Of a DNA stretch of 64,000 nucleotides, positions 3,852 through 7,944 are shown one piece after another. Origin of the DNA: Gemmatimonadaceae bacterium (lineage in GTDB: Bacteria; Gemmatimonadota; Gemmatimonadetes; Gemmatimonadales; Gemmatimonadaceae); the NCBI GenBank assembly GCA_036273715.1, contig DASUHB010000028.1:124001-188000 (forward strand). Direction: 5' to 3'. The number at the start of each line of letters is the position of its first letter. Within the stretch, counting starts at the first letter, position 1. The notes under the pieces were generated by a model that had not been told where the DNA came from, made no database searches, and saw only the letters and a program-made list of their open reading frames with translations. The translations under genes and the position numbers were made by a program.

Positions 3852-5315
3852 TCAGTCGGCCGCGATTGCCGCAGTTGGGCCCGCCTCGCGAATACGCTGC
3901 GCGTGGTACCGGCCGTACCAGAAATAGATCGCGAGACCCACCACCAGCCAGATCACCAGCCGCGCCCACGTCTCGAGCGGCAATCCGATCATCTGTGCGA
4001 AGCAGATCAGCGCGCCGAGGATCGGAACCCACGGCATGCCCGGGGTCTTGAACGGCCGGTGCAGATGCGGTTCGCGACGCCGCAACACGAGCACACCCAT
4101 GCACACCATCACGAACGCCAGCAGCGTGCCCATCGCCGTGAGCTGCGTGAGCACCGCGATCGGGAACAGGCCGGCGACGAGCGCGACCACGACGCCGGTG
4201 ATGGCGGTGGTGACGTACGGCGTGCGGAAGCGCGGATGGATTTTGCCTAACAACGGCGGCAGGAGCCCGTCGCGGCTCATCGAATAGAAGATGCGCGGCT
4301 GCCCGAGCAGCATCACCAGCATCGTGCTGGTGAGCCCCATGATCGCGCCGAGCTTGACGATCGGCTTGAGCCACCCGATCCCCGTCGCATCGATGCCTAA
4401 CGCGATCGGCGCCGGCACGTTGAGCTGCGTGTACTTGACGATGCCGGTGAGGACCAGCGCCACCGCCACGTACATCACCGTACAAATGACGAGCGAGGCC
4501 ATGATCCCGATCGGCATGTCGCGCTGCGGATTCCGCGCTTCCTGCGCTGCCGTCGACACGGCATCGAAGCCGATGAACGCGAAGAAGATCACGCCGGCGC
4601 CGCGCAGCACCCCGCTCCACCCGTACACGCCGAAGTGGCCTGCGTTGGGCGGGATGAACGGATGCCAGTTCGCACGGTTGATGTACGCGGCGCCGAACGC
4701 GATGAACAGGAGCAGCACGGCCACCTTGATCACCACGATCAGCGTGTTGAGTCCGGCCGATTCGCGAATGCCGATGATCAGCAGCACGGAGATCGCCAGG
4801 ACGACCAGCGCCGCCGGCACATTGAAGATTCCATGCACCGTCGCGCCGCCCGACAGCGCCACCACCGATCCCGGCGGCCCGGCCCACTGCGCGGGAATGC
4901 CCAACCCGACGTCCTGCAGAAAGCTCTGGACGTTGCCCGCCCACCCCACGGCGATCGTCGACGCGCCCAGCGCGTACTCGAGAATGAGGTCCCAGCCGAT
5001 GATCCAGGCGAAGATCTCGCCTAACGTCGCGTAGGCGTACGTGTACGCGCTCCCGGCCACCGGAATCATGCTCGCGAACTCGGCGTAGCACAGCCCCGCG
5101 AACGCGCAGCCCACGCCGGCGATGAGCATCGAGATCACGAGCGCCGGTCCGGCGAACTGCGCCGCGGCGGTTCCGGTGATCACGAAGATGCCGGCCCCGA
5201 TCACCGCCCCGATGCCGAGCGTGGTGAGACTGAAGGCGCCTAACGAACGCCGGAGCGTGCCCGACTCCGCTTCGACCATCAAGTCGGACAGCGGCTTCTT
5301 GGACAGGAGACTCAT
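3852..5315 (-). CDS. APC-family amino-acid permease
   Basis: 487 residues with about twelve hydrophobic helices. It starts with the typical cytoplasmic N-terminus and first helix of the amino acid-polyamine-organocation family (TLGIGAVIGAGIFVITG). Family members such as YfnA and the cationic amino-acid transporters exchange or import amino acids by proton symport. The ATG at 5315 is preferred over an in-frame start at 5402 because it puts the usual short N-terminal tail before helix 1. Substrate cannot be deduced. The gene diverges from the kinase operon at 5543, with the GTCAG repeat array between them. Confidence 0.88.
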   Translation of the reverse strand: MSLLSKKPLSDLMVEAESGTLRRSLGAFSLTTLGIGAVIGAGIFVITGTAAAQFAGPALVISMLIAGVGCAFAGLCYAEFASMIPVAGSAYTYAYATLGEIFAWIIGWDLILEYALGASTIAVGWAGNVQSFLQDVGLGIPAQWAGPPGSVVALSGGATVHGIFNVPAALVVLAISVLLIIGIRESAGLNTLIVVIKVAVLLLFIAFGAAYINRANWHPFIPPNAGHFGVYGWSGVLRGAGVIFFAFIGFDAVSTAAQEARNPQRDMPIGIMASLVICTVMYVAVALVLTGIVKYTQLNVPAPIALGIDATGIGWLKPIVKLGAIMGLTSTMLVMLLGQPRIFYSMSRDGLLPPLLGKIHPRFRTPYVTTAITGVVVALVAGLFPIAVLTQLTAMGTLLAFVMVCMGVLVLRRREPHLHRPFKTPGMPWVPILGALICFAQMIGLPLETWARLVIWLVVGLAIYFWYGRYHAQRIREAGPTAAIAAD

Positions 5316-5417: not shown

Positions 5418-5458
5418 GTCAGCACCGCGTCAGCGCGTCTGTCAGAGTTCAGTCAGAG
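5418..5458. promoter_or_regulatory. four GTCAG direct repeats at 11-12 bp steps, PhoB/OmpR-type box
   Basis: GTCAG begins at 5418, 5429, 5441 and 5452. The first two read GTCAGC and the last two GTCAGAG. The 11/12/11 bp steps put all copies on one face of the helix, as in pho-box-like sites where OmpR-family regulators bind head to tail. The array lies 85 bp upstream of the kinase-regulator operon and about 100 bp upstream of the divergent permease. Autoregulation by the downstream regulator is inference. Confidence 0.6.
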
Positions 5459-5542
5459 CTCCCCTTCCCGCACCCCCGCGCACCGTACATCCTGCAATTG
5501 GTTCGTGTCGCGCTCACATCGGGCGCCGTCTGCGAGGAGCCA

Positions 5543-7252
5543 ATGCCGTTGTCGTTCGCTCGGCGACAGTCCGGAGTCGACCGCCAGCCAGCCATTTGGC
5601 GCTCGCGGGCATCGCTGCTCGTCGCGCTGCTCGGCCTCACGTTCGTTCTCGCCGCGGTCCTCGCGTACGAAGCGCACGATGCCGCGCGATCGCACCGCGT
5701 GACCGCGGAGCGCGCGCTCCGGGATTACGCAACCTTCGCCGCATGGGAACTGCTCGCCAACGCCACCGACACGGTCGGCCCAACGCTGTCCGCGGCGTTG
5801 GCGCCCGTCACGGCAGGCATCGCCGCGACGCCGTATGACGCGCTCCCCGGCCCCGCCGTGCTCGCCGCGTCCGGCGGCGCGGCGCTCCGCTGCGCAAATC
5901 AACGAGACGACGCCGCGCGCTGGTACTTCCGTCTCGATTTCCGCGACGGCTCATTCGCGACCGTCGGCGCCACGCCACTCGCAGAGGAACGCTCCTTGGT
6001 CCGTGCGGCGGTCGACCAACAAGCGCGCACCGTCTATCGTCCCGATTGGTCGTATGCGACGCTGCTCGTGGGACGGGGCTCCGCCGAGCGCGCCGTCGCG
6101 TACGCGGTGAAGTACGCGGTGCACGGTGCGCCGATCGCAGCCTTCGGATTCTCCACGTGCGCCGATGCGCTGGGCGCTCCGGTGTTCGCGGGCGTGATGA
6201 GCCGGCACCCGCTGCTGCCGCGAACGCTCGCAATGCACGAGCCCAACGACTCGCTGGTCTCGGTCACCGTGCTCGGCCCGACGGGCGACACGATCTGGGA
6301 CTCGGGCCGGCGCAGCCTCACGCCGTTCACCGCCGACGCCTCACAGGAGACGTTCGGCGGCCTCACGGCGCGCGCCACGCTGCGGCCGCTGGCCGTCGAG
6401 CGGCTCGCGTTAGGCGCGATCCCGCAGTCCAAGGTTTCGCTTCTCCTCGGCCTCCTCGCCCTCACGGCCGGGATGATGGTGTTGGCGGTGCTCCAACTCC
6501 GCCGCGAGCAGGAGCTCGGGCGGCTCCGCTCCGATTTCATCTCGAGCGTCTCCCACGAGCTGCGCACGCCGCTCGCCCAGATCCTGCTCTTCGCCGAAAC
6601 GCTCCGGTTGGGCCGCGTGCGGAGCGCGGCCGAGCGCGCCGGCGCCACCGACGTCATCGTCCATGAAGCGCGGCGCCTCATGCAGCTCGTCGAGAACGTG
6701 CTGCTGTTCTCGCGCAGCGAGCGCCGCATGACGCGGCTGCGTCCCGAGCCGACGGCGCTCGCTCCGTGCGTCCGGGAAACCGTGGAAACCTGGCGCCCGC
6801 TCGCCGTGGCGGCCGACGTCACGCTGTGCACCCGCCTCGATGCGCACGTCGTGGCGCTGCTCGACCGGAGCGCGGTGCGCCAGATGCTGCTCAACCTGCT
6901 CGACAACGCCATCAAGTACGGACCGGCGGGCCAGACCGTCACCATCACCGTCGACCGGCAGGGCAGCCGCGCGCGGCTCATGGTGCACGACCAGGGGCCC
7001 GGCGTCCCGTTAGGCGAGCGGGACCGCGTCTGGCAGCCGTTCCAGCGCCTCGAGCGCGACGTGCGCTCCGCGGCCGCCGGGAGCGGCATCGGCCTCTACG
7101 TGGTGCGCGAGCTCGCCGCGATGCAACACGGCGACGTGTGGGTCGAAGACGCCACGTCCGGCGGCGCATGCTTCGGCGTCTCGTTCCCGCTCGTCGACGC
7201 GCCCGAGCACCTAACGCCGAGCGCCGAGGCTGTCGGCACGGCTCGCCCATGA
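5543..7252 (+). CDS. membrane sensor histidine kinase
   Basis: 569 residues. A first membrane helix (about 20-40) is followed by a roughly 260-residue extracytoplasmic domain of unknown ligand, a second helix (about 300-322), HisKA (FISSVSHELRTPL, His near residue 338) and HATPase_c (N box MLLNLLDNAIKYG, DQGPGV, GSGIGLYVV). No HAMP domain is evident. The ATG at 5543 is chosen over a start at 5498 because GAGGAG sits 3 bases before it and the protein then begins just before helix 1. It overlaps the regulator gene as ATGA. A TACATC at 5486-5491 could be its -10 box. Confidence 0.9.
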   Translation: MPLSFARRQSGVDRQPAIWRSRASLLVALLGLTFVLAAVLAYEAHDAARSHRVTAERALRDYATFAAWELLANATDTVGPTLSAALAPVTAGIAATPYDALPGPAVLAASGGAALRCANQRDDAARWYFRLDFRDGSFATVGATPLAEERSLVRAAVDQQARTVYRPDWSYATLLVGRGSAERAVAYAVKYAVHGAPIAAFGFSTCADALGAPVFAGVMSRHPLLPRTLAMHEPNDSLVSVTVLGPTGDTIWDSGRRSLTPFTADASQETFGGLTARATLRPLAVERLALGAIPQSKVSLLLGLLALTAGMMVLAVLQLRREQELGRLRSDFISSVSHELRTPLAQILLFAETLRLGRVRSAAERAGATDVIVHEARRLMQLVENVLLFSRSERRMTRLRPEPTALAPCVRETVETWRPLAVAADVTLCTRLDAHVVALLDRSAVRQMLLNLLDNAIKYGPAGQTVTITVDRQGSRARLMVHDQGPGVPLGERDRVWQPFQRLERDVRSAAAGSGIGLYVVRELAAMQHGDVWVEDATSGGACFGVSFPLVDAPEHLTPSAEAVGTARP

Positions 7253-7944
7253 CACGCATTCTCGTGATCGAGGACAATCGCAACCTCGCCATGGGGCTGC
7301 GCAACAACCTCGAGATCGAGGGCTACCAGGTGGAGCTCGCGGGCGACGGCAACACGGGCCTCGAGCGCGCGCGCGCCGGCGCGCCCGACGTGATCATCCT
7401 CGATCTCATGCTGCCCGGCCTCGATGGCTATCGCGTCCTGCGCGCCCTGCGCGCCGACGGCTGCGAGACGCCGGTGCTCATCCTCAGCGCCCGCGGCGAA
7501 GAAACGGACAAGGTGCTGGGCTTTCGGTTAGGCGCGGACGACTACGTCACCAAGCCGTTTGGACTGCTGGAGCTCCTGGCGCGCGTCGACGCGCTGCTGC
7601 GCCGCGCAGCGAACGGCGCCCGCGCCGCCCGCGGCGCGCTCGCGCCCCGCGAGCAACTCGGTGACATCGAGATCGACACCACCACGCGCACGGTCTCTCG
7701 CGCCGGCGAGCCGGTGCCGCTCCGACCCAAGGAATACGAGCTGCTCGTCGCGCTGCTGCGCCGCCGCGGACGGCTCGCGTCGCGCGATGAGCTGCTGCAG
7801 GATGTCTGGGGCTACGCCTCGGAAGTCGTGAGCCGCACGGTCGACACGCACATCGCCGAGTTGCGCCGCAAGCTGGAGCGCAATCCGGCCGCGCCCGACT
7901 TCATCCTCACGGTCCGGAAAGCGGGCTACCGCATCCGCATCTAG
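7249..7944 (+). CDS. OmpR/PhoB-family response regulator
   Basis: 231 residues: receiver domain (LVIEDNR, Asp in IILDLMLPG, Thr/Ser in LILSARG, Lys in TKPFG) and a C-terminal winged helix (about 130-230; RPKEYELLVALL, SRTVDTHIAELRRKL). It is the DNA-binding partner of the kinase encoded just upstream, to which it is coupled by an ATGA overlap. The four GTCAG repeats upstream of the operon are the obvious candidate site. A GCCTAAC copy follows directly after the stop. Confidence 0.93.
   Translation: MTRILVIEDNRNLAMGLRNNLEIEGYQVELAGDGNTGLERARAGAPDVIILDLMLPGLDGYRVLRALRADGCETPVLILSARGEETDKVLGFRLGADDYVTKPFGLLELLARVDALLRRAANGARAARGALAPREQLGDIEIDTTTRTVSRAGEPVPLRPKEYELLVALLRRRGRLASRDELLQDVWGYASEVVSRTVDTHIAELRRKLERNPAAPDFILTVRKAGYRIRI

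Follow-up and report, generated by a model that had tools for sequence, protein, structure and literature searches.

The window, by which we mean the whole 64,000-nucleotide stretch of DNA analysed, contains four copies of GTCAG on the forward strand, at steps of 11, 12 and 11 bp, between a kinase-regulator operon and a divergent amino acid permease gene (Table 1). The copies and their steps had been described in the earlier note, and we recovered both at exact coordinates; the reading frames given there also hold, with the starts refined to an ATG at 5543 for the kinase and, on the reverse strand, an ATG at 5315 for the permease. The array thus ends 86 bp from the first of these and lies 102 bp from the second, and its 12-bp middle step forms a variable linker between two pairs of half-sites, A and B. 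All three GTCAG pairs separated by 5–8 bases in the whole window belong to this array, while shuffles of the window gave a mean of 0.57 such pairs and reached three in one of 100. The earlier note had proposed a search for the same array elsewhere in the genome; in the 4.34 Mb of this Gemmatimonadaceae genome we found no other array of at least three GTCAG copies at 10–13 bp steps (and none of a control pattern), and from the frequency of GTCAG we would expect about 5e-5 four-copy arrays (steps 10–12) per genome by chance.

Table 1. Features of the kinase-regulator-permease locus (positions are those of the window)
Feature	Position	Strand	Evidence or remark
APC-superfamily amino acid permease, GkApcT-like, 487 aa, divergent; probable second target	3852..5315	-	Pfam
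Half-site 1 GTCAG, pair A	5418..5422	+	GTCAA in orthologue L006, else invariant
Half-site 2 GTCAG, pair A	5429..5433	+	11 bp from half-site 1; invariant in 5 orthologues
Half-site 3 GTCAG, pair B	5441..5445	+	TGTCAG counting the T at 5440
Half-site 4 GTCAG, pair B	5452..5456	+	11 bp from half-site 3
TACAT, possible -10 of kinase promoter	5486..5490	+	inferred; ACAT kept in five orthologues
GAGGAG, probable kinase ribosome-binding site	5534..5539	+	sequence
Sensor histidine kinase, 569 aa	5543..7252	+	Pfam; AlphaFold2 model; Foldseek
OmpR/PhoB-family response regulator, 231 aa	7249..7944	+	Pfam, PDB search, alignment

The regulator, whose start overlaps the kinase stop by 4 bp, consists of a receiver domain (PF00072) and a winged-helix domain (Trans_reg_C, PF00486), both above cut-off, and carries the recognition helix SRTVDTHIAELRRK. 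The kinase has two membrane helices, a putative double-CACHE-like periplasmic sensor, HisKA and HATPase_c. Its periplasmic domain, about residues 45–295, is well predicted in the AlphaFold2 model (pLDDT 91), and the best Foldseek matches are double-CACHE and related sensors, which, with TM-scores of only about 0.3–0.5, include KinD, CqsR and the amino-acid chemoreceptors PctA, PctC and Mlp24, whose ligands are pyruvate (KinD), ethanolamine (CqsR) and amino acids (the other three); a PDB sequence search with the sensor domain found nothing. This domain would sense a ligand, perhaps an amino acid or another small molecule. The permease aligns with GkApcT (PDB 5oqt, 6f34) over residues 1–474, nearly its whole length (E 8e-150 against 5oqt), and scores 600.2 bits against the NCBIfam BcaP model, below the cut-off of 690.

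The permease-array-kinase arrangement is common to four further genomes of the same genus (L033, L004, L005 and L006). The absence of the repeats upstream of orthologous operons had been named in the earlier note as evidence against a regulatory role; they are present in all of these orthologues, at the same place and with the same 11, 12 and 11 bp steps, with a single half-site decayed in L006. In the five-way intergenic alignment the half-sites are invariant in 19 of their 20 columns and the spacers in 10 of 19, and the flanks show 26 invariant columns of 44 just downstream of the array and 31 of 102 on the permease side. The best conserved part of the array is the palindrome TCTGTCAGA (5438–5446), which holds half-site 3; its counterpart in each of the four orthologues is CTCTGTCAGAG. 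In the stretch from the array to the kinase, CCCCTTCC (5461–5468) and ACAT (5487–5490) are kept in all five genomes and, judging from this conservation, may be promoter marks of the kinase gene; a sigma-70 promoter scan gave no consensus match here, the candidate TACAT included. Beyond the genus, a degenerate form of the array precedes the kinase in most relatives.

To look at the wider family we gathered the upstream sequences of 102 related kinase genes, almost all in members of the same class, and reduced them to 73 by dropping recognisably similar ones; in this unbiased scan all 5-mers at all steps of 6–25 were considered, counting the loci in which the word was repeated in the 170 bp that precede the kinase. 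The word GTCAG/CTGAC came out at step 11 in 21 of the 73 loci, the next unrelated word in three, and the other words exceeding three (TGACA, CCTGA, CGTCA) were the same motif in shifted, overlapping frames. When the letters of these upstream sequences were shuffled, the best step-11 word reached at most three and GTCAG/CTGAC at most one, and no step-11 GTCAG/CTGAC pairs were present inside the kinase genes of the scan. Step 11 dominated among all steps tried, which corresponds to direct repeats about one helical turn apart. These pairs are strongly concentrated by position, with 26 in the 12.4 kb before kinases, seven in the 13 kb directly after regulators and two in the remaining 596 kb, although the family loci are related by descent and such counts are not independent. 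Relative to the kinase gene the pair faces one way in 12 cases and the other way in 14, depending on the lineage.

Across the family the half-site consensus is TGTCAG(G/C)R with a weakly constrained spacer. A TGTCAG-N5-TGTCAG box with at most two mismatches over its twelve positions precedes 36 of the 52 operons whose regulator has the helix RTVDTH (0–0.4 in shuffles); a recognisable box is missing from the other 16 within the 175 bp searched, and none of 17 more distant kinase loci had one. Four-copy arrays occur with steps of 11, 12, 11 (the window and three orthologues), 11, 10, 11 (four related loci) and 11, 11, 11 (L124), so that the outer steps are 11 throughout and the middle one varies, a spacing that would match two dimers, each spanning an 11-bp pair. 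In a class-wide search for three-copy arrays, none of the 30 loci examined lay near a kinase, regulator or permease of this family, and many of the matches were tandem or coding repeats; the bare pattern therefore fails to find the regulon.

The half-site varies together with the recognition helix of the neighbouring regulator. All 38 regulators having an exact GTCAG pair nearby carry threonine at the site equivalent to T200 in the window regulator, while such a pair was found near none of the 18 regulators with another residue there (Fisher test, which ignores kinship, 7.6e-5 for all loci and 2.5e-4 for the reduced set). For the residues M, I, V, A or S the count of exact pairs is 0 of 17; instead, 10 of these 17 have TGTAAG-N5-TGTAAG (at most two mismatches; 0 in shuffles). 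In the best pairs the fourth half-site base is C in 45 of 52 T-type loci and A in nine of 12 others, so that RTVDTH goes with TGTCAG and RTVD(M/I/V/A/S)H with TGTAAG. On the tree the helix-residue label needs four changes, of which two or more fall on well-supported branches, and with only two to four changes few independent events underlie the covariation. The residue of Mycobacterium tuberculosis PhoP that aligns with T200 is Ser216, one of the major-groove DNA contacts of that protein (PMC4832192). This covariation ties the array to the adjacent regulator.

The permease adjoins the kinase-regulator system in four gene orders, all within the regulator's subclade: divergent, as in the window; permease-kinase-regulator (L121, L141); kinase-permease-regulator (L122); and kinase-regulator-permease (L123, L124, L125, L155, L178). 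Immediately before the permease, L122 and L125 have a pair and L124 has a looser array; all three read CTGAC towards the permease, the orientation also seen in the window. Where the permease-linked group has a box before the kinase, it reads GTCAG towards the kinase. The single array of the window presents GTCAG towards the kinase and CTGAC towards the permease at once. In four other permease-linked loci (L121, L141, L155, L207) there was no clear direct-repeat pair before the permease. Two of these, L121 and L141, share a CTGACC-N5-CTGTCATTC element before the leading permease, an inverted rather than direct arrangement of half-sites.

Conservation, 11-bp phasing, position before the operon and covariation with the recognition helix together make the array a predicted regulator site. 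In our preferred reading, to which we give a probability of roughly 0.87, it is the operator of the two-component system at 5543–7944, bound as two head-to-tail dimers, through which the operon would regulate itself and probably the permease as well. Each dimer would read a pair of TGTCAG-type half-sites spaced by 11 bp, or one helical turn; the 12-bp step would fall between the dimers, and the regulation would be activation rather than repression. The earlier note had proposed tandem OmpR/PhoB-type dimers, control by the neighbouring regulator and possible joint control of the permease, and these proposals fare differently: the direct-repeat spacing of OmpR/PhoB type is supported by the lead of step 11 in the unbiased scan, and control by the regulator encoded at 7249 by the covariation, both through sequence comparison, while joint control of the permease is favoured less firmly, by the arrays directly before the permease in rearranged relatives. 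Shared control is nonetheless likely, given the CTGAC-oriented arrays before the permease and before other downstream targets, and we consider it probable that the array also controls the divergent GkApcT-type permease.

The closest contender keeps the operator and drops the second target, so that the array would control the kinase-regulator operon and the permease would be a mere neighbour. Most family members indeed have the box before the kinase with no permease nearby, and so do the nearest relatives outside the genus (L133 and L134, with a degenerate box); at the same time, the permease stays attached through all four arrangements, pairs sit directly before it in L122 and L125, and the DUF5916 and dioxygenase genes downstream in other lineages (see below) have arrays of their own, so that we regard autoregulation alone as unlikely, if worth keeping in mind. 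A further option is that some other regulator binds the array, for which the genome, with about ten full-length OmpR-type regulators, offers candidates. Such a regulator would have to account for a half-site that covaries with the helix of the adjacent protein and a box that follows this regulator family into other phyla, which makes it a distinctly improbable explanation. Least credible of all is a chance repeat in a G+C-rich intergenic region: class-wide three-copy matches are often tandem or coding repeats, but this array is unique in its genome, its half-sites are kept while the spacers drift, and the family shows strong positional enrichment, so that we give chance practically no weight.

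The earlier note had also likened the half-sites to the pho box, which would imply a PhoB-type regulator binding the array in response to phosphate. The likeness is partial and superficial: the Escherichia coli PhoB pho box, quoted in PMC4832192 as CTGTCAT(A/T)4CTGTCAT, shares with the array the TGTCA core and head-to-tail half-sites at 11-bp steps, and PhoB, like the window regulator, is of the OmpR/PhoB family. The array differs in the final half-site base (G, not T) and in having no A/T-rich spacer, and TGTCAT fits the family far more poorly than TGTCAG. The phosphate link is not supported. The regulator scores 196.7 bits against the PhoB equivalog (cut-off 296.2) and is fourth for PhoB likeness in its own genome; the kinase, with a match limited to the kinase core, is far under the cut-offs of phoR_proteo (142.3 against 334.2) and PnpS (167.2 against 400); and the neighbouring genes encode an amino acid permease or, in relatives, DUF5916 and dioxygenase proteins, not phosphate functions. 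We therefore rejected the pho-box reading as very improbable.

Among characterised systems, M. tuberculosis PhoP, one of the closest PDB sequences to the regulator, binds TCACAGC-N4-TCACAGC as a tandem dimer on 11-bp direct repeats (PMC4832192); TGTCAG lines up with TCACAG and the recognition helices are in the same register, but half-site and helix residues differ and the window regulator is not an orthologue. Clostridioides difficile RR_1586 is likewise an OmpR-type regulator with a direct-repeat site (an 11-nt motif repeated) that was derived, and carried on to a regulon, by comparative genomics; its candidate sites include an autoregulatory one, and binding was verified experimentally (PMC6222199). 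Its half-sites are of TTAAG type, whereas the predicted window site is of TGTCAG type.

The box is also found outside the phylum. With homologous kinase-regulator pairs, TGTCAG-N5-TGTCAG with 0–1 mismatches occurs in an Acidobacteria MAG (L219), three Woeseiaceae MAGs (L226, L229, L236), Aliikangiella coralliicola (L228) and two Gammaproteobacteria MAGs (L223, L232), all named as in their records, and two members with the helix RTVDIH (L222, L224) have TGTAAG pairs. No box was seen at the homologous pairs of Sulfidibacter (L230) and L225. We put at even odds the broader reading that these loci represent an undescribed autoregulated two-component family with a TGTNAG-pair operator (11 bp), which would be common in Gemmatimonadota and extend to Acidobacteria and Gammaproteobacteria. 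In such a family the T200-type residue would set the fourth base (T giving C; M, I, V, A or S giving A), and adjacent targets would have been captured as permease, DUF5916 and dioxygenase genes gained their own operator copy. The kind of system is well known, an OmpR/PhoB-type regulator with a tandem direct-repeat operator; the family, with its operator and its helix/half-site rule, seems not to have been described in the papers searched, where we found no account of the motif or the two-component system, nor any regulator binding site that had been defined in Gemmatimonadota, a phylum common in soil. The analysis offers a concrete, testable predicted operator for a two-component family found in at least three phyla. 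The regulator/DNA pairs that occur naturally in this family also form a series in which one specificity rule of OmpR-type recognition helices can be traced and put to the test, and the array would connect an orphan sensor kinase with an amino acid transporter.

Within its own genome, step-11 GTCAG pairs number 10, where an even spread would give about four. Eight are outside the array; several of these fall within reading frames, and only two or three seem to be intergenic (for example L089 1018, C69:96917, and L085 1116, C34:74715, which could be additional targets). With so slight an excess and so few intergenic pairs, we do not claim further targets there. The same genome also has a paralogous kinase-regulator pair (L186, C64:118701-121125) with about 41% kinase identity and a single GTCAG upstream; its helix is RTVDTH too, so two systems of the same predicted specificity coexist. 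In other lineages, pairs after the regulator precede DUF5916 or dioxygenase genes, with CTGAC towards the target in seven of seven. In six loci (L165 537-3248 and L210 1011-3254, both on the reverse strand, L140, L142, L167 and L168) the regulator gene is followed by one for a DUF5916 + CBM9-like protein; in L165 and L210 this second gene has a step-11 CTGAC pair of its own, placed immediately after the regulator gene. In L180, L187, L189, L190 and L191, three- or four-copy CTGACA arrays (11, 10, 11 or 10, 11) after the regulator gene precede the gene of an intradiol-dioxygenase-like protein; Dioxygenase_C was found in L187, and L180 and L189 show the same N-terminal sequence.
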